Source: Sorghum bicolor
Taxonomy: Eukaryota; Streptophyta; Magnoliopsida; Poales; Poaceae
Assembly (NCBI RefSeq): GCF_000003195.3
Contig: NC_012875.2
Coordinates: 11,808,174 to 11,872,173, forward strand
Direction of reading: 5' to 3'
Length of the DNA stretch: 64,000 bases
A model generated the notes under the pieces. That model saw only the letters and a list, made by a program, of their open reading frames with translations. It had not been told where the DNA came from and ran no database searches. Within the stretch, counting starts at the first letter, position 1, and every line of letters starts with the position of its first letter. Below, in pieces: positions 9,956 through 55,562 of the stretch. A program made the translations under genes and the position numbers.

Positions 9956-11078
9956 TGTCGGCATCTAGACTCGCGGTCTAGGCACTAACAAGTATAAGTC
10001 TGCGTGACTGACCAAGCTTGGATGGTGATGCAAGTGAGACACAGTGGGTTTATACTGGTTCGGGCCAAGGATGCCCTACGTCCAGTGTGGCGGTGAATTC
10101 TGTATAACCTTGCACCCAAAGGTGCTTGCAGTAGGGGGTACAAGCTGGATGCGAGAGAGGGCTATGTCCCAGGTCTCGGCTTGGTGTGGACAGAGTGCGG
10201 GTTGTTGCTCTGTGAAAGAGTGTTGTGTGCGTGTGTGTTTTTCTGAACTTGTCCCCTCTCTCTAGTTGTGAACCCTGGCTCCCCTTTTATAGTCTCAAGG
10301 GGAAGACAGGTTTTTACAAGAGTAGATTTCTTCTGTTGAATGGTGAAACCACAGTTCCGACCCTGTTGAGGCTGGTCCGTTTCGTCCTTGAGGGATGGTT
10401 GATGGCACGGCTACTCCTGTAGAGGGTTACCGAACCCTGTAGGGGTCGCGGGGGTCGGATCGCCGGTACTGCTGCATATCTTGTCAACAGTGGGAAATGA
10501 CCACAAACAGTGGTGCTGATTTACCTCGGCCATTCCCTTTCTCCTGTGCGGTAGTGTGCTACAGTGAACAGGGGTAAGGGTGTATAGTGACGGAGGTAAG
10601 GCCACAGTGACCGGGGCGGTTGAAACAGTCGTCGCCTTGCCCTGCCGCGTTATGGGGGCCGTCGCGTCTATCATGTCGCGGGTACGGGCGCCGTGTGGTG
10701 GAAGTCTTTCTACTCAGGCGGAGTGGGGTCCGGCGCCCGAGCCTGGACGGGGTCGGGCGAGGCGGAACATGCGTCCGAGGCCCTGGGGGGTCGGGCGAGT
10801 CGGAACTTGCGTCCGAGGCCCTGGGGGGTCGGGCGAGTCGGAACTGGCGTTCGAGGCCCTAGGGGGTCGGGCGAGTCGGAACTTGCGTCCGAGGCCCTGG
10901 GGGGTCGGGCGAGTCGGAACTGGCGTCCGAGGCCCTGGGGGGTCGGGCGAGTCGGAACTGGCGTCCGAGGCCCTGGCGAGTCGGAACTTGCAACCGAGGC
11001 CCTGATGATTGCGGTTAGTATATTTCTTTTCATTTTTTATTGCTCTGATTTGGGTATCCCTTATTACGGAACCCAACA
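9956..11078 (+). repeat. Solo LTR (1,123 bp) with duplication GTGGG
   Basis: The sequence begins TGTCGGCATC and ends GAACCCAACA. It is flanked by a perfect 5-bp direct repeat GTGGG at 9951-9955 and 11079-11083. There is no primer-binding site, polypurine tract or internal domain, so this is a single LTR left by recombination. It contains the phrase TTTATACTGGTTCGGGCC, common in grass gypsy LTRs, and a 38-bp tandem array near its right end. The orientation is not certain. Confidence 0.75.
10750..11003 (+). repeat. 38-bp tandem repeat array, ~6.7 copies
   Basis: The word TCGGGCGA recurs at 10753, 10791, 10829, 10867, 10905 and 10943, exactly 38 bp apart. A shortened last copy ends near 11003. 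Units differ by single bases (for example ACTTGCGTCC and ACTGGCGTCC). The array is strongly GC-rich in an otherwise mixed LTR. Because 38 is not a multiple of three, long open frames appear in several frames; they are artefacts of the repeat. Confidence 0.9.
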
Positions 11079-13769: not shown

Positions 13770-13774
13770 ATTAT

Positions 13775-16700
13775 TGTGGCAGAACCTCCTGGATCAAGTG
13801 GCCCACATACACCCATCGTTGTCTCAAAGACTTCCAATCGGCGTGTACGAGTTCCAAATGACTCAAGAGGTCTGTCGGGTGTCCTCGGGAAACCCGAATC
13901 ATCCACGTTACATTCTTTTCAGGAATTCCCTCATCAAGCGTCACAGTATTACAACATTTCATAGATAAGAGAAATCAGAGTAAAAGCGGAGAGATTACAT
14001 AACATAGATTGAAACTTAAGTTCAACGGTTACAAACCATAAGTATTTAATACATAAAAGGTTCGGAACATATTATTACATAAACCATAGATCACACAACA
14101 AGTTTTACTTGCCCAAGGTCACACATCAGATTCCTCATCATCACTTTCCTCCATAAGAGTAAAGTAACAACGACCTTCAAAAGGATAATCAAGAGGTTCA
14201 CCTGCAACAGGGGTTAATAAACCCTGAGTACAAAAGTACTCAACAAGACTTAACCGACTATAAAAGAGGTGGAGACTCAGGTATGCTGGCTATAGGGATT
14301 CAAGGTAAAGCTTTATCCAGATCAAGTATTTCTTTTGCATAAAAGCTTACTAAGAGTAAAGCCTACTTTCAAGTTTTAACTCAAGATTATCACTTATAAC
14401 TAGCCAAGATCATTATCCAACTTTCATAAGCAAATCACCTCTTTCTTATACCAAAGATTCACTTATTACTACGATGATGGGGTGAGGATTGAGGCTCCAT
14501 ATCCGAGGAAACACGGCGATTCGAATCGATTAAACCCAGCTGGGGATTCAGTACCACACGACATATGTAGAACTTAATCTTGCATACGTCAACCTTTTCT
14601 ATAGATCCTCCCAAACAAGAACGGGTCCAGCGTCACCCGAGAGTACAGTACACCACCATCCTACAGCCAATCTAGATGTTTCCCGGTCATCTCAGATCCG
14701 TAAGGTGGGTACACGCTACTCTCGCCATCTCTCCACTCCCAGTACGCGGTTAGCCGTTCTCAAGTATCGGAATAGCTATAGGTAAGGCTTACCAGCGCAT
14801 GTGGGCTGTACTCAAAGGTCTCAATCACAACAGGCCAACAACGGTACGGTCCTTAATCGACACAGTTGGAGACACTACTTTAAGACTCCATTCTTAAAGC
14901 AAATCCGCCGACCGGTCTCAAGTTTAACATTATCGACTACAAAAGTATGCCACAACAACCCTTCAAACTTTCTCATTTGAAAACTTATCTAATAAGCAGG
15001 GCTAAGCATACTAAGCATTTTCATAAAACAAGTATCAAGGTTAATATGGAATCATCAAGGTAGATAATGCAGCAAATAGGATTCACTCAACTCCTATTCA
15101 CCTAATGCATCATATTAACTCAAGTGATATAAATAACTTTATGAAAATACAAGGATAGGGTTTAATGTCCGGGGCTTGCCTTGACCGGAAGGGACGTTCG
15201 ACAACTCAGCGAAACCCGAAGGATCCACAAACTCGGAAGCAACCCACTGAGGATCAGATTCTTCCGGAGCGTATTCTATACGTAAAAGTGCATATGCATG
15301 ATTATGCTATACTCAAGGCATAATAAAGACAGGTTACATGTTCTTGGACGATAACAACAAAATATGATTATCTCGAGTACAATTTACCTTCATGGTAAAG
15401 AAACTAACTAATCTAGCTATCAAAGCATGGATTATTACTAAACCAATTTTATCATCTTTATTAAGCAATGTTGTGGACTTATCATATCACAAGGATCATT
15501 TACATGAATTAAACCATAACCAGGGAGCATATCATGCTAAGTAACCACTGGTTGCCAATCAATCCAAAATATCACACAAAGCCTAAAGGAATAATTATTT
15601 CTATTTCTTTTATAATTATTTTAAATAGCTTTATTAAGAGACAGAGCATACTTTATCAAACAGAGCTGAAATTATTCTTGAAGCTAGATAACAGTAACAT
15701 AAGATCACATATTAAATTTCATGATTTTTGGATATACCCATAATTTACTAAAAATCATGGAAGGTTTATTCATTAATAAACAAAGGCAATTTATAGATAC
15801 ATGCAAACTATCATAAAATAAAATTTAATATTTTTCCTACACTATTTACATTCTCTGGAACCTACACAAAAATTTTCATAAATTTTGGATCAACACATAA
15901 TTTATAGCATAAATTCAAACATCAATCATTTTTAAACAAAAAGAAAAAGAAAAGCAACACTGTGCCTCTGCGGCCCCGGAGCTCGGCCCAAGCTCGCGTG
16001 AAACTTGGCCCAGCCGGCCTCCCCCCGCGCGCGCTGACGGTTTTGCAGAAAAACCCTCGACTTCCATAGAAACCAACCCGCAGTCCAGACTACTATTCAC
16101 ATGAGTCTACGACTTCACAAACAAACCCCTCCCCTTTCTCATCTTTACAACTGCGAGGTCCCCGACGCCCCGGCCGTCCAGAGCGCGACACCACGCGGCG
16201 GCGCGGCTTACGCCGGCCAACTCCGGCCACCCCGAACCAAACGGAGGCGAGCACAAGCACCAGCAAGCAACCCGCAACCGAAAGAGCTAGAAAACCCTAA
16301 CTCTACTGTTCTAGCGAACTCTGGCCACGAGCGGCGGCGGACATGGCCGCGGCGGTGCTTACTCCGGTGACCCTGTACCGGTAGAGAAAGAATGGAGAGG
16401 TCAGGAAGCAACGGTTTCTCACCCTGGGTGTGCTGACGCCGAAAGAAGGAGTGTAGAACAACCGGGTGATACTCGCCCACGCGAACAGTGACTCCGGCGG
16501 CGAGCTCCGACGAAGAAGAAGATGTCCCAGTGACAGCTGTGAAGCAAAGGAGAAAAGAGCGAGCCGATGAACATCACGGAATCATGCCGAAGCAAAGACG
16601 AGAGAAAAAGAGAGCAGAAAGTTGCCCGGATGGGCTGACCACGACGAGCTTGACCACGGTGGCGCTCTGTCGCCGGCGGAAAGGAGAATGGTGAAATTCG

Positions 16701-17810
16701 GTGCTCTGGTGCGAAAGAGGAAAGAAGGGTGGGTTCTAGAGATGCGCAAGGAAGTAACGAAGATATGCCCACGGTGAATTTGGATATGGATCAACCGTGG
16801 CGGTGAATTTTGGATTGGAGTGGAAAGCTGTCCGTCGGTGCTCCGGTGGCAATCGACGTCGGTGAGCGCGAAAGGAAGGGACACGTCGCGCTCCACTTCG
16901 CCAGCAGCTGCTTCACCTTGCCATGGACGCGAGCACGTGCTTGGACAAGGTGAAACGGTGGTTCACGCGCTGGCAAACGCCGATCAACGCTCGGCTGTCC
17001 ACCGCCATGAACAGGGCTAGAACTTATCCCCCCCCTTCCCCATTTACCCCTTTCTGTCCTTTTGCAAAAATCGACCAAAAGTTGAACTGAAGTCAAATTT
17101 TCACCAAAAAGAAACTTGTGTAAAATTTTGTGAGTTACAAAACATCTTTTGGTGGCCAGAGCTAAATCTGAGTGGAATGTAGCTTATTTGGCCAAACAGT
17201 TTTGAAACTTAAAGTAAATCCAAAGAAACCCAAATTTTTGAATTGGGGCAAAATAGTATTTCCAAAATTACTTTTGATTTTGCATAACAACTTGAAAAAC
17301 TCCCAACATGAAAGTTGTTCAACTTTTTAAGCTCTACAACTTTCATGTTGACCATTTTTCAAAATTCCAAACAGATTTTGAATTGGAGATTCAAATTGGA
17401 AAAGGGGACACTTTTTGGAAAACTGTATTTTCAAAATTACTTTGAATTTTGTACTGAAACTTCAAAAACTCAAAACACCAAAGTTGTACATCTTGACAAG
17501 ATCTATAACTTTGCTTTTGAACTCAACTTCAAATTTTGCTTGGTTTTTGAATTGCACAAAAGGGGGCAAATCTAGGGTTTTTAAACTAGGGTTCCCCCCT
17601 AAGCTTCTCGGAAAACTTCCACCCAAGGTTTTTTTAAAACTCCAACACAATCATCCATACACAAAATAAACACACTTAAATTCTTAAGCACATCCAACCA
17701 AATTTAAACTTATTTTAAGTTCGGGCATCAGTGTGTGCTTAAAAAATTTACGATGCAATGCTCATGATGACATGTCAGGATTTTAGTCTGCTTAACACCA
17801 GAGTGTTACA
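13775..17810 (-). repeat. 3' LTR of the young chromovirus (4,036 bp)
   Basis: Plus-strand ends are TGTGGCAG and GTGTTACA. It matches 23601-27635 almost base for base. A GC-rich island of about 1.1 kb (near 15955-17030) is embedded in AT-rich flanks. Short frames inside it are not recognised as genes. A hairpin with 13-bp arms (17306-17318 and 17336-17348) carries GAAAGTTGT. Confidence 0.95.
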
Positions 17811-17824
17811 GCTCTTTCCCCCTT
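17811..17824 (-). other. Polypurine tract of the young chromovirus
   Basis: On the minus strand the sequence is AAGGGGGAAAGAGC, immediately before the 3' LTR. This is the expected priming site for plus-strand DNA synthesis. Confidence 0.9.
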
Positions 17825-17939
17825 AAAGAAATCTCGTCCCGAGATTTTAACTTGAAAGCTAACTAATGGAAAAGGAAGTTTGTCAAGCACTTCCAAAACC
17901 AACCTTTACAAAAACAGGGGTAGATCATTACACTACAGA

Positions 17940-20900
17940 TTACAAGGATAGCTCAGAAGAAAGAAACTCAGGAAAACTTTCTAAGAGAAACTCTTCGGGC
18001 TCCCACGTGGCTTCATCTTCGGTATGTTGATTCCATTGCACTTTGTAGTATTTGATAGTTCTTCTACGAGTAACTCGATCTTTTTGATCTAGAATCTTGA
18101 TAGGATACTCTGAATATGTCAGATCAGGCTTTAACTCAATTTCTTCAACATGAATGATATGATCAGGCACTTGAAGACATTTCTTTAATTGAGAGACATG
18201 GAACACATTGTGAACTGATAACAACTGTGGTGGTAAATCTAGACGATATGCCACTTTTCCACACCTTTCAAGGATTTGATATGGACCTATATATCGAGGT
18301 GCCAATTTTCCTTTTACTCCAAAACGAGTGACTACTTTCATAGGTGACACTTTGAGGTATACATAATCACCAACCTCAAAGCTAAGAGATCGACGTCTCT
18401 TATCAGCATAACTCTTTTGCCTGGACTGCGCTATCTTCATGTTATCTCGAATGAGCCTGACTTTCTCTTCGGCTTCTTTGACTAAGTCAACCCCGAAGAG
18501 ACTATGTTCTCCAAGTTCGGACCAATTCAAAGGTGTCCTGCACCTTCTGCCATATAGAGCTTCGAATGGTGCCATCTTAATGCTTTCTTGATAACTATTA
18601 TTGTAAGAGAATTCTGCTAGTGGCAAACATTCATCCCATTTCTCTGAATAACTGAGCACACAAGATCTTAACATATCTTCTAAGATCTGATTGACTCTTT
18701 CAGTCTGACCTCCAGTCTGTGGATGATAAGCTGTACTATGCAAAAGTTTAGTACCCAAGGACTTATGTAGGTGCTTCCAGAAAGCATTTACAAACTGTGT
18801 CCCTCTATCAGATACGATAGTCTTTGGAATACCATGTAAACTTACAATTCTGTTAAAGTATATCTTAGCATAGATGGAAGCTCGATACTTCTTTCTTACG
18901 GGAATGAAATGAGCTGATTTGGTCAGACGATCAACAATGACCCATATGGAATCAAACCCTTTCAATGTTCTGGGTAAACCCACTATGAAGTCCATACTGA
19001 TGTCATCCCACTTCCAAGATGGAATTGGCAATGGTTGCAATTCTCCAGCAGACCTAAGATGAACTGCTTTCACTTTTTGACAAGTATCGCATCTAGCCAC
19101 ATAACTAGCAATTTCAAGCTTCATCTTAGTCCCCCAGAATCTTTGTTTCAAATCATGATACATCTTATTACTGCCTGGATGGATTGAAAGTCTTGTTGCA
19201 TGAGCTTCATCAAGAATTTGTTTTCTGAGTTCAGGGACTTTTGGAACTACTAAACGATCCTTGAACCAAATCACTCCAGCTTCATCTATTCTGAACTTGG
19301 AATTTGGTTCAGACTGAACCTTTCTTTTCAAAAAGATTATACCCTTATTTTCTTGCTGGGCTGTAATAATCTGATCTTTGATAGATGACTGAACTGTCAT
19401 ATTTGTCAAACTCCCTTGTGGAATCATCTCAAGACCTAACTTTTCAATTTCATAACATAAGGTAAGGTCTATAGGCTTGAATTCTAGACAATTGCAATGA
19501 CTCTTTCGACTGAGTGCATCTGCCACTACATTGGCTTTGCCTGGGTGATAGTGTACTTCAATATCATAATCTTTTATCAGTTCTAACCACCTTCTCTGAC
19601 GCATATTCAACTCTGACTGAGTAAAGATGTATTTCAAACTATTATGATCAGTATATATGTGACAAGTATTGCCCAATAGATAATGTCGCCAGATCTTCAG
19701 AGCATGGACTACAGCTGCCAACTCTAGATCATGGGTTGGATAATGCTCTTCATGACGCTTAAGTTGTCGTGAAGCATATGCAATGACTCTGCCTTCTTGC
19801 ATTAGTACACACCCAATGCCTTTGCCTGAAGCATCACAATACACATCAAAAGATTTTTCAATATCAGGTTGAGCTAGCACTGGTGCAGTGGTCAACAACT
19901 TTTTCAAAGTCTGAAAAGCTTCTTCACACTCGGATGACCACACAAACTTGGTATCATTCTTTAGCAGTGTTGTCATTGGTTTAGAGATCTTGGAGAAGTC
20001 AGGGATAAACCTGCGATAATACCCCGCCAATCCTAAGAAACTCCGAACTTGATGTACTGAAGTTGGTGACTTCCAGTCAAGAACTTCTTGGACTTTGCTT
20101 GGATCTACCGCAACACCTTCAGCTGACAGGACATGGCCCAAAAATTGAACTTCATCTATCCAGAATTCACACTTGCTAAACTTAGCATATAACTGATGTT
20201 CTCTCAGGCGAGTTAACACTATCCTGAGATGCTCCTCATGCTCTTCTTTAGTTTTGGAATAGATGAGAATGTCATCAATGAATACCACCACGAACTTATC
20301 TAACTCTGGCATGAACACTGAATTCATCAAATACATAAAATGTGCTGGGGCATTTGTCAGACCAAAAGACATGACCAGATATTCATACAAACCATATCTG
20401 GTAGTGAATGCCGTTTTCGGAACATCTTTTGGTTTAATCTTAATTTGATGATACCCAGATCTCAAGTCTATCTTCAAAAATACCTTAGCTCCAGTTAGTT
20501 GATCAAAGAGAAGATCAATACGGGGTAAAGGATACTTATTCTTAATTGTTACTTCATTCAAAGGTCGATAATCTACACATAACCTCAAGGTATTATCCTT
20601 TTTCTTCACAAAGATTGCCGGACAACCCCATGGTGACGAACTAGGTCGAATGAAACCTTTGTCCATCAATTCTTGCAACTGAGTTTTTAATTCTGCTAAT
20701 TCTTTTGGTGGCATTCTATAAGCTCTTCTGGATATTGGTGCTGTCCCTGGCTTGAGCTCTATTTCAAACTCCACATCACGATCAGGTGGCAGACCAGGTA
20801 AATCCTCTGGGAACACATCAGGAAACTCACAGACCACTGGAATGTCCTTGATTTCCTTGACAGAGATAGCACATACTTGCTCAACTGCTCTCTTAAGGGT

Positions 20901-21341
20901 AGGAAGATGGATAAGAAGTTGAGACTTGCTATTAGGTAAGTTGACCTTGATGGTTCTATTTAAGGTGTCTATAACTGCACCTCTCTGACTCATCCAGTTC
21001 ATACCCAAGATCACATCTATACTCGGATCTTTTAACACTATCATGGATGTTGGAAATATATATCCACCCAAGTCTATTGGTACCTGATGTACCATTTCCT
21101 TAGTGCATAGTCGACCCCCAGGTGACTGTATAAAGAACTCATCTTTGGTTGCACCAATAGGTATATTATGCTTTTCCGCAAATGCTCTATTCATGAAAGT
21201 ATGTGATGCACCAGAATCAAAAAGTGTAAGCGCTGAGTGTTGGGCAACAGGGAACATACCAAGCATCACTGGTTCTCCTTCAGGTATAGCCTCAACTTGA
21301 GTGTGGAAAACCCTTCCTGTTTTCGGAGTACCCTTACCCTT
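17940..21341 (-). CDS. pol polyprotein: PR-RT-RNaseH-IN with chromodomain
   Basis: The frame is open from the codon after the gag UAG to 17940. Counting from the GTG at 21269, it encodes 1,109 residues, with 24 more upstream in frame. Visible in order: protease DSG (18-20); reverse transcriptase with D268 and FIDD (330-333); RNase H with D479, E516, D541 and D584; integrase zinc finger H690, H697, C727, C730; integrase catalytic D760, D821, E857 with the usual 35-residue spacing; a GPY/F-type module near 985-1010; and a C-terminal chromodomain at about 1054-1104 (EYPIKIL ... YKVQWNQ ... ATWEP). All catalytic residues are present. One oddity is HPQTGGQTE where HPQTDGQTE is usual. The chromodomain keeps the Y and the first W of the methyl-lysine cage, but has H where a third aromatic is expected. 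The product would copy the element's RNA and insert it, with the chromodomain guiding target choice. Expression depends on getting past the UAG. Confidence 0.95.
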
Positions 21342-22424
21342 CTACTGATTCTGGGCATTAACTTTGTTTTGATTTGCTTGCTGATTTCCAACTGGTCTTG
21401 GTGCATTGACATTTGGAACATTTTGCCTTGGATATGGACATTCACGAGAAAAATGTCCACTCTTCCCACAATTGTAACAAGGGTTGTTTGCAGCTTGTGG
21501 CACTGGCGGACGAATGGCAGGAGCATTCGGCTGACGTTGAACATTGAACGGCATTGCCGGCCTTGCAAAACTCCTCTGCATATTCTGTTGCTGAGGCGGC
21601 TGATAAGAAGGGCGATAAGATGGGCGGAACTGCTGAGCTGGATGATATATGAGCCTCTGGCGCTTCTTGTTGCCGCCAGATGATCCAGACCCTGAGACAA
21701 ACCCCTTCTTCTTCTTAGCCTCCTTATGTTTGCGGTTCTTTTCTTCACTGGAGATAGCGATGTTCACTGCCTCATGATAAGATATATTGCCACAGGATGC
21801 CATCATCAGCTGAAGCTTTGTATTCAAGCCTCTCATGAAACATTCCTTCTTCTTTTCATCAGTGTTGACTTGCTCAATTGCATATTGGGACAGATGATTA
21901 AACTTTCCAATATACTGCATGATTGGTTCATCCCCCTGACGGAGAGCTAAGAACTCTTCGAGCTTCATTTTCATAACTCCCTTGGGAATGTAATGAGCCC
22001 TGAAGGCTTCCTTGAATTCTCCCCAAGTGATTCGGTGGCGGGCTGGTTGAACAGCCAGTAAGTTTTCCCACCAAACCCCTGCTGCTCCTCTCAGCTGCTG
22101 AGCGGCGAAAACTGGCTTCTGGGTTTCAGTACAGTTGATGAGACTGAACTTTTGCTCCATAGTACGAAGCCAATCCTCAGCTTCAAGAGGTTCATCAGCT
22201 TTTGTGAATTCTGGGGGACGGGCATCGGTGAAGTCAACATATGTGGTTTCTTCTCGATTATTGCGACCACGGCCACGCTGACCAACATTCTGGTTTTGTG
22301 CTAACAGAGTTGTTGCATTGACCAATGCTGCAATTGCATCAGCCAAAGAGGGTGGAACTGGTGGTGCATTAGGAAAATCATCCCTACCCTGGGAAGAACT
22401 AGCTCCATGGTTGTTAGCAGACAT
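21342..22424 (-). CDS. gag (360 aa)
   Basis: The protein has a low-complexity N-terminus, a retrotransposon gag capsid domain (GVWWENL, then WGEFKEAFRAHYIP and LEEFLALRQGDEPIMQY), a basic Ser/Gly/Lys linker, a Pro/Gln-rich stretch, and one CCHC zinc knuckle at 316-329 (CYNCGKSGHFSREC). It forms the virus-like particle and binds the RNA. The ATG is preceded directly by TTTTTAAACAG, an intron-acceptor-like sequence, so this mRNA may be spliced. The frame ends at UAG (21342-21344) in the context CAG-UAG-AAG, and pol continues in the same frame. Confidence 0.95.
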   Translation of the reverse strand: MSANNHGASSSQGRDDFPNAPPVPPSLADAIAALVNATTLLAQNQNVGQRGRGRNNREETTYVDFTDARPPEFTKADEPLEAEDWLRTMEQKFSLINCTETQKPVFAAQQLRGAAGVWWENLLAVQPARHRITWGEFKEAFRAHYIPKGVMKMKLEEFLALRQGDEPIMQYIGKFNHLSQYAIEQVNTDEKKKECFMRGLNTKLQLMMASCGNISYHEAVNIAISSEEKNRKHKEAKKKKGFVSGSGSSGGNKKRQRLIYHPAQQFRPSYRPSYQPPQQQNMQRSFARPAMPFNVQRQPNAPAIRPPVPQAANNPCYNCGKSGHFSRECPYPRQNVPNVNAPRPVGNQQANQNKVNAQNQ

Positions 22425-22649
22425 CTGTTTAAAAACACATCACACTTCGATTAACATACTTACTTAAACATCATACATCATGACTTTCATAGCACAAACA
22501 CGTTCATCTTATTTATCATACAAGTCCGCTCCTGGGCAGGACTACCGAAACCACTATCTTACACAACTTCCCATACTAGAGGTTTTCTGACTAACTAAGT
22601 TACAAAGTCAGAAGAGCACACTAGGTCATACTTCGTGCCTACTCAACAC

Positions 22650-23117
22650 CTAGTCGTCATCCATATCCGACTCACTGGTGGTAACATCCTCATCTGGAGT
22701 GGGAGTTCCTGGTTCCTCTGCTTCATCCTCAGAAGTATCACTATCCACTTGGATGACAACTGGTCCTTCCTCTGCTGCTTCAGGAGCCTCGGGTGGATTG
22801 AGGGCATCTTGCAGCTGGTGCACTTCCTCATGGAGGATGTTGGTATAGGCCTCAAGGTTGACCACATACCCTGCCATATGGTACAGCTGAACTTCCATGT
22901 TGATGTTGTCAGTGAGCATCAGGCGCAGATCATTCTTCATAAGCCTGTAGGTCCTTGGCGAAGGAGGACCTCCGCTCGTGTCACTCCCGTTTCCGTCGCT
23001 GGAGTTATCAGTGCTGCTGTCGCTGCTGTCGGAGGGTGGCGGATCCCTTGATGCCAACTGGTGCCTGGGAACACGACCTCCGGTGGACTTGCGAGCGGTT
23101 AGGCGGGTACGAGCCAT
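22650..23117 (-). CDS. Accessory ORF with histone-H3-tail-like N-terminus (155 aa)
   Basis: I do not know a named family for this protein. It starts MARTRLTARKSTGG and continues RVPRHQLASR. Against the plant H3 tail (initial Met removed), 16 of the first 23 residues match, including an unbroken TARKSTGG around K9/S10. H3 K4, K14, K18 and K23 are R, R, H and R here. The whole protein has only two lysines: K10 (the H3K9 position) and K61. Residues 25-55 are a Ser/Asp/Pro-rich linker, about 55-107 look helical with heptad-like hydrophobics (LRLMLTDNINMEVQLYHM...), and 108-155 are strongly acidic. There is no histone fold. It lies between the primer site and gag, in sense with the element. The codons of the tail also resemble an H3 gene (CGCAAGTCCACCGG), suggesting capture of an H3 fragment. 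The function is unknown; chromatin mimicry is inference. Confidence 0.85.
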   Translation of the reverse strand: MARTRLTARKSTGGRVPRHQLASRDPPPSDSSDSSTDNSSDGNGSDTSGGPPSPRTYRLMKNDLRLMLTDNINMEVQLYHMAGYVVNLEAYTNILHEEVHQLQDALNPPEAPEAAEEGPVVIQVDSDTSEDEAEEPGTPTPDEDVTTSESDMDDD

Positions 23118-23277
23118 CTGCCAAAATATTTTTATTTTGAATATTAGAACTATATATGTTCCAAGGTTAAAGGATAGAGTTTTACAATTAGATGGACATA
23201 TTACCTCTAATTATTAACAACTTTAAGGAGGAAAGTTAATTACATGTTATCAATAATGATGCATGAAACGTACTTAC
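23118..23277 (-). other. Predicted intron ending at the H3-like ORF start
   Basis: On the minus strand there is a consensus donor TTC|GTAAGT (GTAAGT at 23277-23272). An AT-rich 160-nt stretch follows, with a CTAAT branch-like element about 35 nt from the end, and then an acceptor TATTTTGGCAG placed exactly before ATG 23117. The gag ATG has a similar acceptor. Splicing from the same donor to the gag acceptor (22425) would remove the H3-like ORF. This is a prediction from sequence only. Confidence 0.6.
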
Positions 23278-23586
23278 GAACAAAGCATACATCAAACAAG
23301 TAATTAACTTTAAATTAGTCACTTGATATAAAAGTGCATAAACTTGCTTTTCATAAATAGGGCAATATTATAAGCATTGTTCCTTGTATATAAATATCAC
23401 CACAATCATACTAAAAACATATCCATTTAGAGAGAAGGATAAGTCTAAAGAATGAATTGAGACAAGTTAGAAGCATACGACAAGCTTAGAAGCAATTTGG
23501 ACTCAAACTAATTTGAAATTTAGTTTGACTCAAAAGCTTTTGAAGTTTTCAAAATCGAATACTGCTATACTTTCTAAGGGAAACCT

Positions 23587-23598
23587 GCTCTGATACCA
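23587..23598 (-). other. Primer-binding site, initiator tRNA-Met
   Basis: Minus-strand TGGTATCAGAGC, the exact sequence complementary to the 3' region of initiator tRNA-Met. It is two bases inside the 5' LTR edge at 23601. It fixes the orientation of the element. Confidence 0.95.
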
Positions 23599-23600
23599 GC

Positions 23601-26600
23601 TGTGGCAGAACCTCCTGGATCAAGTGGCCCACATACACCCATCGTTGTCTCAAAGACTTCCAATCGGCGTGTACGAGTTCCAAATGACTCAAGAGGTCTG
23701 TCGGGTGTCCTCGGGAAACCCGAATCATCCACGTTACATTCTTTTCAGGAATTCCCTCATCAAGCGTCACAGTATTACAACATTTCATAGATAAGAGAAA
23801 TCAGAGTAAAAGCGGAGAGATTACATAACATAGATTGAAACTTAAGTTCAACGGTTACAAACCATAAGTATTTAATACATAAAAGGTTCGGAACTTATTA
23901 TTACATAAACCATAGATCACACAACAAGTTTTACTTGCCCAAGGTCACACATCAGATTCCTCGTCATCACTTTCCTCCATAAGAGTAAAGTAACAACGAC
24001 CTTCAAAAGGATAATCAAGAGGTTCACCTGCAACAGGGGTTAATAAACCCTGAGTACAAAAGTACTCAACAGGACTTAACCGACTATAAAAGAGGTGGAG
24101 ACTCAGGTATGCAGGCTATAGGGATTCAAGGTAAAGCTTTATCAAGATCAAGTATTTCTTTTGCATAAAAGCTTACTAAGAGTAAAGCCTACTTTCAAGT
24201 TTTAACTCAAGATTATCACTTATAACTAGCCAAGATCATTATCCAACTTTCATAAGCAAATCACCTCTTTCTTATACCAAAGATTCACTTATTACTACGA
24301 TGATGGGGTGAGGATTGAGGCTCCATATCCGAGGAAACACGGCGATTCGAATCGATTAAACCCAGCTAGGGATTCAGTACCACACGACATATGTAGAACT
24401 TAATCTTGCATGCGTCAACCTTTTCTATAGATCCTCCCATACAAGAACGGGTCCAGCGTCACCCGAGAGTACAGTACACCACCATCCTACAGCCAATCTA
24501 GATGTTTCCCGGTCATCTCAGATCCGTAAGGTGGGTACACGCTACTCTCGCCATCTCTCCACTCCCAGTACGCGGTTAGCCGTTCTCAAGTATCGGAATA
24601 GCTATAGGTAAGGCTTACCAGCGCATGTGGGCTGTACTCAAAGGTCTCAATCACAACAGGCCAACAACGGTACGGTCCTTAATCGACACAGTTGGAGACA
24701 CTACTTTAAGACTCCATTCTTAAAGCAAATCCACCGACCGGTCTCAAGCTTAACATTATCGACTACAAAAGTATGCCACAACAACCCTTCAAACTTTCTC
24801 ATTTGAAAACTTATCTAATAAGCAGGGCTAAGCATACTAAGCATTTTCATAAAACAAGTATCAAGGTTAATATGGAATCATCAAGGTAGATAATGCAGCA
24901 AATAGGATTCACTCAACTCCTATTCACCTAATGCATCATATTAACTCAAGTGATATAAATAACTTTATGAAAATACAAGGATAGGGTTTAATGTCCGGGG
25001 CTTGCCTTGACCGGAAGGGACGTTCGACAACTCAGCAAAACCCGAAGGATCCACAAACTCGGAAGCAACCCACTGAGGATCAGATTCTTCCGGAGCGTAT
25101 TCTATACGTAAAAGTGCATATGCATGATTATGCTATACTCAAGGCATAATAAAGACAGGTTACATGTTCTTGGACGATAACAACAAAATATGATTATCTC
25201 GAGTACAATTTACCTTCATGGTAAAGAAACTAACTAATCTAGCTATCAAAGCATGGATTATTACTAAACCAATTTTATCATCTTTATTAAGCAATGTTGT
25301 GGACTTATCATATCACAAGGATCATTTACATGAATTAAACCATAACCAGGGAGCATATCATGCTAAGTAACCACTGGTTGCCAATCAATCCAAAATATCA
25401 CACAAAGCCTAAAGGAATAATTATTTCTATTTCTTTTATAATTATTTTAAATAGCTTTATTAAGAGACAGAGCATACTTTATCAAACAGAGCTGAAATTA
25501 TTCTTGAAGCTAGATAACAGTAACATAAGATCACATATTAAATTTCATGATTTTTGGATATACCCATAATTTACTAAAAATCATGGAAGGTTTATTCATT
25601 AATAAACAGAGGCAATTTATAGATACATGCAAACCATCATAAAATAAAATTTAATATTTTTCCTACACTATTTACATTCTCTGGAACCTACACAAAAATT
25701 TTCATAAATTTTGGATCAACACATAATTTATAGCATAAATTCAAACATCAATCATTTTTAAACAAAAAGAAAAAGAAAAGCAGCACTGTGCCTCTGCGGC
25801 CCAGGAGCTCGGCCCAAGCTCGCGTGAAACTTGGCCCAGCCGGCCTCCCCCCGCGCGCGCTGACTGTTTTGCAGAAAAACCCTCGACTTCCATAGAAACC
25901 AACCCGCAGTCCAGACTACTATTCACATGAGTCTACGACTTCACAAACAAACCCCTCCCCTTTCTCATCTTTACAACTGCGAGGTCCCCGACGCCCCGGC
26001 CGTCCAGAGCGCGACACCACGCGGCGGCGCGGCTTACGCCGGCCAACTCCGGCCACCCCGAACCAAACGGAGGCGAGCACAAGCACCAGCAAGCAACCCG
26101 CAACCGAAAGAGCAAGAAAACCCTAACTCTACTGTTCTAGCGAACTCTGGCCACGAGCGGCGGCGGACATGGCCGCGGCGGTGCTTACTCCGGTGACCCT
26201 GTACCGGTAGAGAAAGAATGGAGAGGTCAGGAAGCATCGGTTTCTCACCCTGGGTGTGCTGACGCCGAAAGAAGGAGTGTAGAACAACCGGGTGATACTC
26301 GCCCACGCGAACAGTGACTCCGGCGGCGAGCTCCGACGAAGAAGAAGATGTCCCGGTGACAGCTGTGAAGCAAAGGAGAAAAGAGCGAGCCGATGAACAT
26401 CACGGAATCATGCCGAAGCAAAGACGAGAGAAAAAGAGAGCAGAAAGTTGCCCGGATGGGCTGACCACGACGAGCTTGACCACGGTGGCGCTCTGTCGCC
26501 GGCGGAAAGGAGAATGGTGAAATTCGGTGCTCTGGTGCGAAAGAGGAAAGAAGGGTGGGTTCTGGAGATGCGCAAGGAAGTAACGAAGATATGCCCATGG

Positions 26601-27635
26601 TGAATTTGGATATGGATCAACCGTGGCGGTGAATTTTGGATTGGAGTGGAAAGCTGTCCGTCGGTGCTCCGGTGGCAATCGACGTCGGTGAGCGCGAAAG
26701 GAAGGGACACGTCGCGCTCCACTTCGCCAGCAGCTGCTTCACCTTGCCACGGACGCGAGCACGTGCTTGGACAAGGTGAAACGGTGGTTCACGCGCTGGC
26801 AAACGCCGATCAACGCTCGGCTGTCCACCGCCATGAACAGGGCTAGAACTTATCCCCCCCTTCCCCATTTACCCCTTTCTGTCCTTTTGCAAAAATCGAC
26901 CAAAAGTTAAACTGAAGTCAAATTTTCACCAAAAAGAAACTTGTGTAAAATTTTGTGAGTTACAAAACATCTTTTGGTGGCCAGAGCTAAATCTGAGTGG
27001 AATGTAGCTAATTTGGCCAAACAGTTTTGAAACTTAAAGTAAATCCAAAGAAACCCAAATTTTTGAATTGGGGCAAAATAGAATTTCCAAAATTACTTTT
27101 GATTTTGCATAACAACTTGAAAAACTCCCAACATGAAAGTTGTTCAACTTTTTAAGCTCTACAACTTTCATGTTGACCATTTTTCAAAATTCCAAACAGA
27201 TTTTGAATTGGAGATTCAAATTGGAAAAGGGGACACTTTTTGGAAAACTGTATTTTCAAAATTACTTTGAATTTTGTACTGAAACTTCAAAAACTCAAAA
27301 CACCAAAGTTGTACATCTTGACAAGATCTATAACTTTGCTTTTGAACTCAACTTCAAATTTTGCTTGGTTTTTGAATTGCACAAAAGGGGGCAAATCTAG
27401 GGTTTTTAAACTAGGGTTCCCCCCTAAGCTTCTCGGAAAACTTCCACCCAAGGTTTTTTTAAAACTCCAACACAATCATCCATACACAAAATAAACACAC
27501 TTAAATTCTTAAGCACATCCAACCAAATTTAAACTTATTTTAAGTTCGGGCATCAGTGTGTGCTTAAAAAATTTACGATGCAATGCTCATGATGACATGT
27601 CAGGATTTTAGTCTGCTTAACACCAGAGTGTTACA
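23601..27635 (-). repeat. 5' LTR of the young chromovirus (4,035 bp)
   Basis: Ends TGTGGCAG and GTGTTACA on the plus strand; the partner of 13775-17810. As the 5' LTR it should carry the promoter for the element's genomic RNA, but I could not place a convincing TATA box. The same GC-rich island lies near 25780-26855. One C fewer in a C-run accounts for the 1-bp length difference. Confidence 0.95.
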
Positions 27636-27640
27636 ATTAT

Positions 27641-43983: not shown

Positions 43984-45956
43984 GTGGAGCGGTGCGAGTC
44001 TACGTCTCTTGCAGAACATTTAATACAAGACATGACATTAATCTTTACAATAAAATTTATGAGACGTCTCTCAGAACATATTATCCCCAGTTTAGGAATT
44101 CTACACATCCTACCCATTCAGGTAGAAGGAATCCAAGTGCATTTAAGCTTTTATATCTTTGACACATGGGACTTCGACCTGTTGATAAGACACCCTTTTA
44201 AATGACTTCTCTATGAAGGACAATTTGGAAAGCTAAAAATTCGCTTAGGCAAGAAACATCAATTCACATTGTCCATCTCGCACTCTTTAAACTCTAGGAC
44301 CAAACCTTGTCCACAAGATGACCTGTTGGAGGAATTCAGGGCTGCATCCTTAGACTTTTTAGCCAAACCAGGATTAGAATACAAAGCTAGATTTTTCAAA
44401 GAGGAAGAAGCTGACCCTGTTGAGGAAGAACCTTTAGATGAGTTTTGCCAACCGGTCTTAGATATGCTTTTCTAGGTGACGATCCAGAGTCTCCTATCAT
44501 TATAAGTCATAATCTCACTCAGGAGCAGACTCTTCGTCTAATGGCAGTCCTAGAAAAACATTACTCAGCCTTGGCTACTCAGGACCTCAAGGGAATTGGT
44601 CCTGCTCTCTGCACCCATCGCATTCCTATAGATCCTAATATTCCACCATCTAGAGAACCCCAACGTAGACTAAACAATATAATGAGAGAGGTTGTAAAGA
44701 ATGGAGTTTTAAAACTATTGCATGTAGGCATCATTTATGTTGTGCTGCATAGTGAATGAGTAAGCCTTGTTCAAGTTATACCTAAGAAGGGAGGTATGAC
44801 TGTTGTCCAAAATGAGTGGAATGGCTTAATCCCTCAATGCACTATCACAGAATGGCAGATGTGCATAGACTATAGAAAGCTTAATAAGGCAACTAAGAAA
44901 GATCACTTTTCATTACCTTTCATTGATGAGATGCTAGAGCGGTTAGCCAACCATTCATTCTTTTGTTTCTTAGATGGATATTCAGGATATCACCAAATCC
45001 CTTTCCATTCTGATGACCAAAGCAAAACCACCTTTACATGTCCCTATGGAACCTATGCCTATCGTAGAATGTCTTTTGGGTTATGTAATGCACTTGGTTC
45101 TTTTAAAAGATGTATGATGTCTATATTCTCTGATATGACTGAAAAGATTATGGATGTTTTCTGTTTACGGAAAAACCTTTGATGATTGTCTAGAAAACTT
45201 AGATAAATTTTTGCAAAGGTGTGAAGAAAAGTACTTAGTCCTTAATTAGGAAAAAATTTATTTTATGGTTAGAGAAGGAATAGTGCTATGACACTTAGTG
45301 TCTGAAAGAGGCATTGAGGTAGATAAAACTAAAATAGAAGTAATTGAACATTTACCTCCGCCTGTTAATGTAAAAGGAATTAGGAGTTTCCTTGGCCATG
45401 CTGGTTTTTATCGTAGGTTTATAAAAGATTTTTCATTTATTGCTAGACCTCTTACTCGCTTATTGGCTAAGGATGTTCCTTTTTAATTTGATTATGCATA
45501 TTTACAAGGTTTTGAAATTCCTAAGAAAGCACTCATCTCGGCACCAATTATTCAACCCCCTGATTAGTCTTTACCTTTTGAAATTATGTGTCATGCTAGT
45601 GATTATGCTGTAGGGGCAGTGTCAGGACAAACTAAAGATAAAAACCATGATGCAATATCTTATGCTAGCAGAACTCTAACAGGACCTCAACTTAATTATG
45701 CTACTACTGATAAAGAGCTTCTAGCTGTTGTTTTTGCTATTGATAAGTTTATATCTTACATAGTGGGAGCTAAAGTAATTATTTATTCTGACCATGCTAC
45801 TTCAAAATATTTGCTCACTAAGAAAGATGCTAAACCACATTTGATAAGATAGATTTTATTACTCTAAGAATTTGACTTAGAAATAAAAGATAAAAATGGA
45901 GTAGAAAATTTTGTTGCCGATCATTTGTCTAGAATGCAATTTGAAAATCCACAAGA
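43984..45956 (+). pseudogene. Athila-like pol: protease, RT and RNase H (broken)
   Basis: The protease region is seen as HIIPSLGILHILPIQVEG and FYIFDTWDFDLLI. RT fragments include CIDYRKLNKATKKDHFSLPF, FLDGYSGYHQIPF, TFTCPYGTYAYRRMSFGLCNA and, after a frameshift, GIRSFLGHAGFYRRFIKDF. RNase H pieces are [50 protein letters not shown] and NFVADHLSRM. The expected YxDD box is lost at a frameshift after SDMTEKIMDVF. Stops occur at about 44757, 45180, 45248, 45484, 45567 and 45850. The order and motifs are those of Athila-type Ty3/gypsy pol. The nested element cuts the coding region at 45961, just after RNase H. Confidence 0.85.
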
Positions 45957-54234: not shown

Positions 54235-55562
54235 CCATCGACGACTCACTCCGGGACGACATGCTCTACAGAATCAACAGATCTGACCCTTGGTATGCAG
54301 ATATTATTAATTTTATGGTTACAGGTTATGTACCACTGGGAGGCAACAAAAGGAAGCTAAATCCAGGAGAGCCATTCTCACATATGGGATGAACCATACC
54401 TCTTCCGAGTATGCTCTGATGGCTTTCTCAGAAGGTGTGTGCCAGCTGAAGAAGGAATCAAAATCATTGAAATATGTCATTCATCACCATATAGAGGGCA
54501 TTATGGGGCATTCCGAACACATGCACAAATATGGCAGCGTGGATTCTTCTAGTCAACAATGTATGAAGACACAAGAGAATTTATTTGGAGATGTGGCCCA
54601 TGTCAGAGACATGGTAATATCAATTAAAGGGATGACATGCCACTCATCAGTAATCTCTAGATTGAGCTCTTTGATGTCTAGGGGATTGACTACATGGGGC
54701 CATTTCCGCCATCAAAGAAGTATGAGTATATCCTGGTGGCAGTAGATTATGTCTCCAAGTGGGTTGAAGCCGTGCCATGTTGGAATGCTGACAGTATGCA
54801 TTCCAAGAAGATGTTCGAAGAAATAATATTTCCAAGATTTGGGGTTCCAAAGATAGTGATAAGTGATGGAGGTTCTCACTTTATCGACAAATGCTTCAAG
54901 CAATACTTGTCAAAGCAGGGGATACGTCACAATGTCGCTACTCCTTACCATCCTACAAGTGGCCAGACAGACATCAACCAAGCAAATTAAGAATATTCCA
55001 TAGAAGACAGTAAATGAGATGGGGACAGCTTGGAAGGATAAGCTTCATGTTGCACTCTGGGCATACCGGACGACATATAAGACACCCATCGAGATGTCAC
55101 CCTATCAAGTTGTCTATGGAAAAACATGTCATTTACCAGTGGAGCTAGAATTCAAAGCTCACTGGGCTATCAAGAGATGGAACATGGACTTAGAAGCAAC
55201 TGGAGACAAGAAGAAGATGCAACTCTCTGAGCTAGAAGAATGGAGAGAAAAAAGCATATCACAATGCCAAGATTCATAAAGAGAGAGTAAAAAGACAGCA
55301 TGACTAAAGGATCAAGAAGGAGTTCACCCCAGGCGATAAGGTATTACTTTGTAATTCTAGGGTGATGCTCTTTGAGCATGGAAAACTTCAAAGCAAATGG
55401 GAAGGACCGTTACAGGTGGTGAGCTCATCGTCGCATGGAGCCATCACACTTCGCAACAACGAAGGCACGTTATTCAAGCTAAATGGTCAATGCCTTAAAA
55501 TATTTTTAGAGCCTAACAATGAATTAGAGGAAGTAGACATAATTACTTTCTTTCTCAATTAA
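54235..55562 (+). pseudogene. Athila-like integrase (broken)
   Basis: Continues pol of the host element after the insertion. The zinc-binding region is spread over shifted frames (CHSSPYRGHYGAF ... RCGPCQRHGN). The catalytic core shows YILVAVDYVSKWVEA, VISDGGSHFIDKCF and HNVATPYHPTSGQT, where the usual Glu is replaced by Asp (GQTD). Then come WKDKLHVALWAYRTTYKTP and SPYQVVYGKTCHLPVELE. Stops and frameshifts occur near 54988, 55010 and 55278. The C-terminal piece ends ...GQCLKIFLEPNNELEEVD at 55560-55562. Non-functional. Confidence 0.82.

Follow-up and report, generated by a model that had tools for sequence, protein, structure and literature searches.

A histone H3-like tail on an accessory protein of a young Ty3/gypsy chromovirus of Sorghum bicolor is kept among related proteins

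Introduction

Plant transposons are silenced by SUVH- and CMT-type proteins, the writers and readers of methylation on lysine 9 of histone H3 (H3K9), and to our knowledge the escape of plant retrotransposons from silencing by H3K9 and DNA methylation is little understood. Histone mimicry is known from viral proteins such as influenza NS1, in which short H3-like motifs lie away from the protein start. Here we describe an accessory open reading frame (ORF) of a Ty3/gypsy chromovirus in Sorghum bicolor whose product, P0001, begins with an H3-tail-like stretch. The element lies in a window of 64,000 nucleotides (assembly GCF_000003195.3, contig NC_012875.2, forward-strand positions 11,808,174 to 11,872,173), to which all coordinates below refer. 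As in the viral mimics, an H3-like stretch is found in a parasite protein, but here it comprises some 20 residues, stands at the true N-terminus and occurs in a transposon family.

Accessory proteins of transposable elements, among them those of VANDALs, which are DNA transposons, provide the second comparison. The VANC proteins of Arabidopsis VANDAL transposons counter epigenetic silencing (PMC10398659, PMC5735166). They share with P0001 their origin in a plant transposable element and an action against silencing, which for P0001 we infer; they differ in binding specific noncoding regions, and the available text of the two reports describes no histone mimicry. Conserved additional ORFs (aORFs) of plant long terminal repeat (LTR) retrotransposons lie mostly between pol and the 3' LTR, according to the accessible part of PMC7264820. 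The ORF described here is likewise an extra conserved ORF besides gag-pol, but it precedes gag, and none of the aORFs in that text has an H3 tail. Orchid Ty3/gypsy elements carry an ORF for an m6A (RNA) demethylase, as described in the available portion of PMC9289625; in those elements, too, a further ORF provides a host-like function, but it encodes an enzyme domain acting on RNA and has no histone tail. Reviews and surveys have dealt with the extra ORFs of plant LTR retrotransposons, and none described in their accessible parts has an H3 tail (PMC7264820, PMC6317226, PMC12786077). The literature searched, whose coverage leaves out preprints and most subscription papers, likewise yielded no report of a retrotransposon protein with an H3 tail. 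Histone mimicry and transposon accessory proteins are each already known.

An H3-like start on a non-histone protein

The accessory ORF is intact only as a minus-strand reading (23117 to 22650), the plus-strand reading being interrupted by stops. It follows the primer site (23598-23587) and precedes gag (22424-21342). Its product begins with MARTRLTARKSTGGRVPRHQLASR, in which 16 of 23 residues equal H3 residues 1-23 at the same distance from the start Met, with TARKSTGG uninterrupted. Translation thus bears out a preliminary description made from the DNA letters, which had reported an intact 155-codon ORF between primer site and gag, without naming its strand, and the same 16-residue match. 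A scan of 2,476 ATGs, taken from both strands of the window, scored the 23 codons after each one against H3 1-23; the result was 16 here and 6 for the next-best ATG. Composition-preserving shuffles of the tail (n=200,000) reached at most 11 matches to H3, and the best match of P0001 among PDB chain sequences is histone H3, residues 1-24 to 1-24 (phmmer, E 5.9e-5). Chance resemblance is ruled out by these comparisons.

The remainder of the protein is not a histone. Whole P0001 matches no Pfam family above cut-off, histones included (best E 0.32), and its AlphaFold2 (AF2) model contains one helix only, so that a histone fold is absent. Residues 25-53 form a Ser/Asp linker that is predicted to be unstructured and holds no double-stranded RNA-binding domain (dsRBD); the C-terminal residues 107-155 include 19 D/E and no K/R. 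The Ser/Asp linker, helical middle and acidic tail of the preliminary description agree with the model, the charge count and the absent Pfam histone match. Besides this body of helix and acidic end, P0001 differs from H3 in its lysines: K9 is the only one in the tail, lysines 4, 14, 18 and 23 being replaced.

The charges of the two ends (tail +7, C-terminal part -19) would suit a basic tail that serves nuclear import, or that attaches the protein, together with gag particles, to chromatin through histone chaperones or importins, with no decoy role. H3 tails do carry import signals, K14 and K23 being the import lysines. Both, however, are replaced in all but one each of the related tails described below, and any basic run would suffice for such a function, with no need to keep TARKSTG and PRHQLA exactly. 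We regard this explanation as unlikely.

Relatives keep the H3-like start

Relatives were collected by a first protein search (41 rows, E up to 0.1), a profile search (7,998 candidates scored, 2,425 related proteins at E up to 0.001, of which the best 120 were listed) and a third protein search (26 rows, E up to 1). The collected set comprises 178 distinct proteins, P0001 included. Clusters among the relatives have up to 439 members; these numbers, and the likeness of the proteins to the window copy, suggest that the relatives also sit in retrotransposons, as is shown for the window copy. Patterns applied to viral contigs and prokaryote genome contigs matched 9, 16 and 62 stretches, none of which encodes a relative, as expected for what is likely a plant element.

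A scored pattern that requires no lysine at position 9 identified the H3-like start in 157 of the 178 proteins, and the motif LHEE(V/I)H is present in 148. The 21 proteins lacking the start are P0005-P0010, close relatives with shorter ORF calls, and 15 members of a group with a dsRBD-like domain whose ORF call starts inside or after the tail; for these 21, true loss and a short ORF call look the same at the level of the protein sequence.

Seven representatives with a body identity of at most 55% were aligned, drawn from 138 proteins that have both tail and motif. Mean identity was 0.76 for the tail (0.62-0.88), 0.21 for the middle (0.08-0.57), 0.95 for LHEE(V/I)H and 0.27 for the C-terminal part, and the tail exceeded the middle in 21/21 pairs. 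Within the largest clade (132 proteins), mean diversity in the tail is 0.119, far below the 0.306 of the middle and the 0.332 of the C-terminal part. A tail that is predicted to be disordered, yet is kept this well on a largely changing body, should be held by a partner. The preliminary description had taken loss or neutral drift of the start in related elements as fatal to mimicry. The start is instead kept in most collected proteins, and better than the middle, the collected rows being the better-scoring ones; its proposal that a retrotransposon protein combines an H3-like start with a body that is not a histone is supported and extends to related proteins.

The family also bears on the origin of the tail. 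We favour descent from a real H3 because residues 1-13 of H3 stand unaltered at the start of two relatives, P0161 and P0167; K14 is retained in P0159. Very likely, judging by these sequences, the tail derives from such an H3 and has since shed most of its acetylatable lysines, with the exception of K9. The captured H3 fragment suggested in the preliminary description would fit this origin. A captured exon fragment carried without function would also account for the exact H3 1-13 starts, and capture of gene pieces does occur in plant LTR elements, as the accessible text of PMC7264820 describes; the excess of tail over middle identity in a family of 2,425 search matches argues against it and makes it very improbable. 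The family is also too large and too widely spread for a single functionless captured fragment to be likely.

A possible decoy for the H3K9 silencing machinery

The residues kept in the 157 tails indicate what a partner might read. K9 is kept in 156, the exception having M, whereas K4 is retained in 19, K14 in 1, K18 in none and K23 in 1. Around it, R2 (150), T3 (150), T6 (153), A7 (126), R8 (145), S10 (147), T11 (155) and G12 (148) are retained. The distance from K9 to P16 is that of H3 in 15/157 tails and one residue longer in 142/157. H3K9 writers and readers are favoured as partners because the kept letters include those around K9. We tentatively propose that the accessory protein, with its K9-centred copy of the H3 tail in the first 24 residues, is a decoy that occupies the host H3K9 silencing machinery, a reading that the sequences make quite possible, if short of probable. 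Its binding partners would be H3K9 methyltransferases of the SUVH type, which may also methylate the tail at K9, or H3K9me readers of the CMT type. The helix may form a coiled coil and so bring several tails together. Writers and readers would be drawn off the chromatin of the element, silencing would weaken and the element could be transcribed.

P0052 is the only collected tail in which methionine replaces K9 (1/157). H3K9M-type tails are inhibitors of H3K9 enzymes.

Several observations weigh against the decoy proposal. K9 is not the sole lysine in 115/157 tails, which have a new lysine at position 5. Position 1 is proline instead of A1 in 99/157, and many of these tails begin MPPRT, one residue longer than H3. 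S10 is histidine in seven proteins and R8 is lost in 12/157. P16 (156), R17 (142), Q19 (154), L20 (157) and A21 (156 of 157) are kept about as well as K9, which an enzyme acting on K9 alone would not explain. In the largest clade, conservation of the tail barely exceeds that of the Ser-rich linker (mean diversity 0.127) and of the stretch with LHEEVH (0.146); among 140 segments of equal length, 17 are as conserved as the tail. P0005 and P0006, at 81% and 73% identity to P0001, are recorded without a tail. Finally, the collected rows are biased to better-scoring matches, and a tail itself favours detection of its protein through five-letter words in common. Decay of methylated CpG in dead copies would presumably account for many of the losses, namely R to H or C and A to T.

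With PRxQLA conserved as well, recognition of the tail apparently extends past the K9 pocket. LSD1-type enzymes need about 20 residues of the H3 tail, and known LSD1 inhibitors mimic that tail. As a pseudo-substrate, the stretch could engage H3K4 demethylases or some other enzyme needing about 20 tail residues, and active H3K4 methylation would then persist on the element. Replacement of K4 by arginine in 138/157 tails and the extent of conservation up to A21 fit this idea. Conversely, K4 itself is rarely kept, Q5 varies freely (retained in 6/157), A1 is often proline, and the best-kept lysine, K9, is not known as a target of such enzymes. On these counts a K4 pseudo-substrate appears distinctly unlikely, and we continue with the H3K9 decoy as the preferred reading.

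A dsRBD-like domain in some relatives

Some relatives contain an extra domain after the tail. Its predicted fold is dsRBD-like (alpha-beta-beta-beta-alpha) with middling model confidence, and fold comparison placed Dicer/DRB-type domains among its best matches. Sequence searches of the domain against Pfam and PDB gave no dsRBD match, and in one such search the best 60 of 145 matches were all histones or Cse4. Going by the modeled fold, the domain would target Dicer/DRB-type RNA silencing and so may add a second arm in these relatives; P0001 has no such domain. Taken with the tail, this would make up a two-armed silencing suppressor in a large plant retrotransposon family, in which the K9-holding H3 tail would capture the H3K9 methylation machinery and the dsRBD of some lineages would engage Dicer/DRB, blocking the chromatin and the RNA branches. 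We consider this combined scheme speculative and unlikely.

The host element

The accessory ORF is enclosed by a complete Ty3/gypsy chromovirus on the minus strand (13775-27635; Table 1). Paired LTRs, a target-site duplication, a primer site and a polypurine tract are present, and gag is followed by protease, reverse transcriptase, RNase H and integrase with a chromodomain at the integrase end (Pfam). RVP_2, RVT_1, RT_RNaseH, Integrase_H2C2 and Chromo (8.9e-7) match pol above cut-off, and the rve match (1.4e-5) is below the curated Pfam cut-off. Alignment of the two LTR regions by blastn spans 4,036 columns at 99.36% identity and contains 25 mismatches and 1 gap opening. At a grass substitution rate of 1.3e-8, this divergence would mean an age of about a quarter of a million years; the retrotransposon is young. 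It may belong to the Tekay/Del clade, judging from its 4 kb LTRs and chromodomain. The primer binding site is one that we take to be of the initiator-Met tRNA type.

The chromodomain supplies a further candidate ligand-binding site for the tail. Its nearest PDB sequence matches are MPP8, CLR4 and HP1, and the H3-like tail could be the ligand of the element's own integrase chromodomain, in which case the accessory protein, perhaps K9-methylated, would tether integrase to a scaffold or hold it off chromatin until integration. The cage looks incomplete, however, with WNQH in the element against WKGY in MPP8, the Y of which we take to be a cage residue. In type II chromodomains, the first of the aromatic-cage sites is missing and usually the last one as well, according to the available part of PMC6317226. 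The idea is attractive because a partner of plant type II chromodomains has yet to be identified, according to the accessible text of two reports (PMC6317226, PMC3350952). We judge a chromodomain ligand to be unlikely.

Table 1 Features of the chromovirus and its accessory ORF (positions in the window; pLDDT, predicted local distance difference test).
Feature	Position	Strand	Basis
Target-site duplication ATTAT, left copy	13770..13774		Direct reading; equals 27636-27640
3' LTR	13775..17810	-	blastn against other LTR
Polypurine tract adjoining 3' LTR	17811..17828	-	Sequence, minus strand CTTTAAGGGGGAAAGAGC
pol, 1,109 amino acids: protease, reverse transcriptase, RNase H, integrase, C-terminal chromodomain	17940..21269	-	Pfam
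gag, 360 amino acids, with CCHC knuckle	21342..22424	-	Pfam Retrotrans_gag 9.5e-20, zf-CCHC
Accessory ORF, 155 codons, protein P0001	22650..23117	-	Translation; relatives
Acidic C-terminal part, residues 107-155	22653..22799	-	Charge count; predicted unstructured
Predicted single long helix, residues 54-106, with LHEEVH at 95-100	22800..22958	-	AF2 model, block pLDDT 89-97
H3-tail-like part, residues 1-24	23046..23117	-	PDB match to histone H3 1-24; predicted unstructured
Primer binding site TGGTATCAGAGC	23587..23598	-	Sequence; two bases inside 5' LTR
5' LTR	23601..27635	-	blastn against other LTR
Target-site duplication ATTAT, right copy	27636..27640		Direct reading

The stop of gag (TAG, 21342-21344, minus strand) is in frame with pol and is the sole stop separating the two; readthrough may occur at it, or it may simply be a mutation. 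On the same strand, CAG directly precedes the ATG of the accessory ORF (23118-23120) and that of gag (22425-22427), with T-rich runs upstream, as at 3' splice sites. Donor-like GTAAGT occurs at 23277 and 22463, and the leader has 12 upstream ATGs. Splicing of the leader could, on these sequence features, select whether the accessory ORF or gag is read. The relatives agree weakly with splice acceptors here: among those with an upstream extension caught by the pattern, the residue before the tail Met is Q in 2/27, D in 13/27, K in 10/27 and E in 2/27.

Elsewhere in the window, a tandem array (10749-10984) consists of 6.2 copies of a 38-base GC-rich unit with 94% matches, and two more Ty3/gypsy pol-like stretches on the plus strand (44856-45948 and 54403-55141) have 26-43% identity to the pol of this element. 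An Rfam search of the window gave no match, and five other ORFs in it have no Pfam match.

Implications

An H3 tail encoded by a transposon, in a family of 2,425 search matches, offers a directly testable, peptide-level answer to how such elements escape silencing. Type II chromodomains may find their missing partner in the H3-like tail, which might alternatively be a natural peptide that inhibits H3K9 enzymes. The dsRBD-like domain of some relatives suggests that a single protein may meet both chromatin and RNA silencing.
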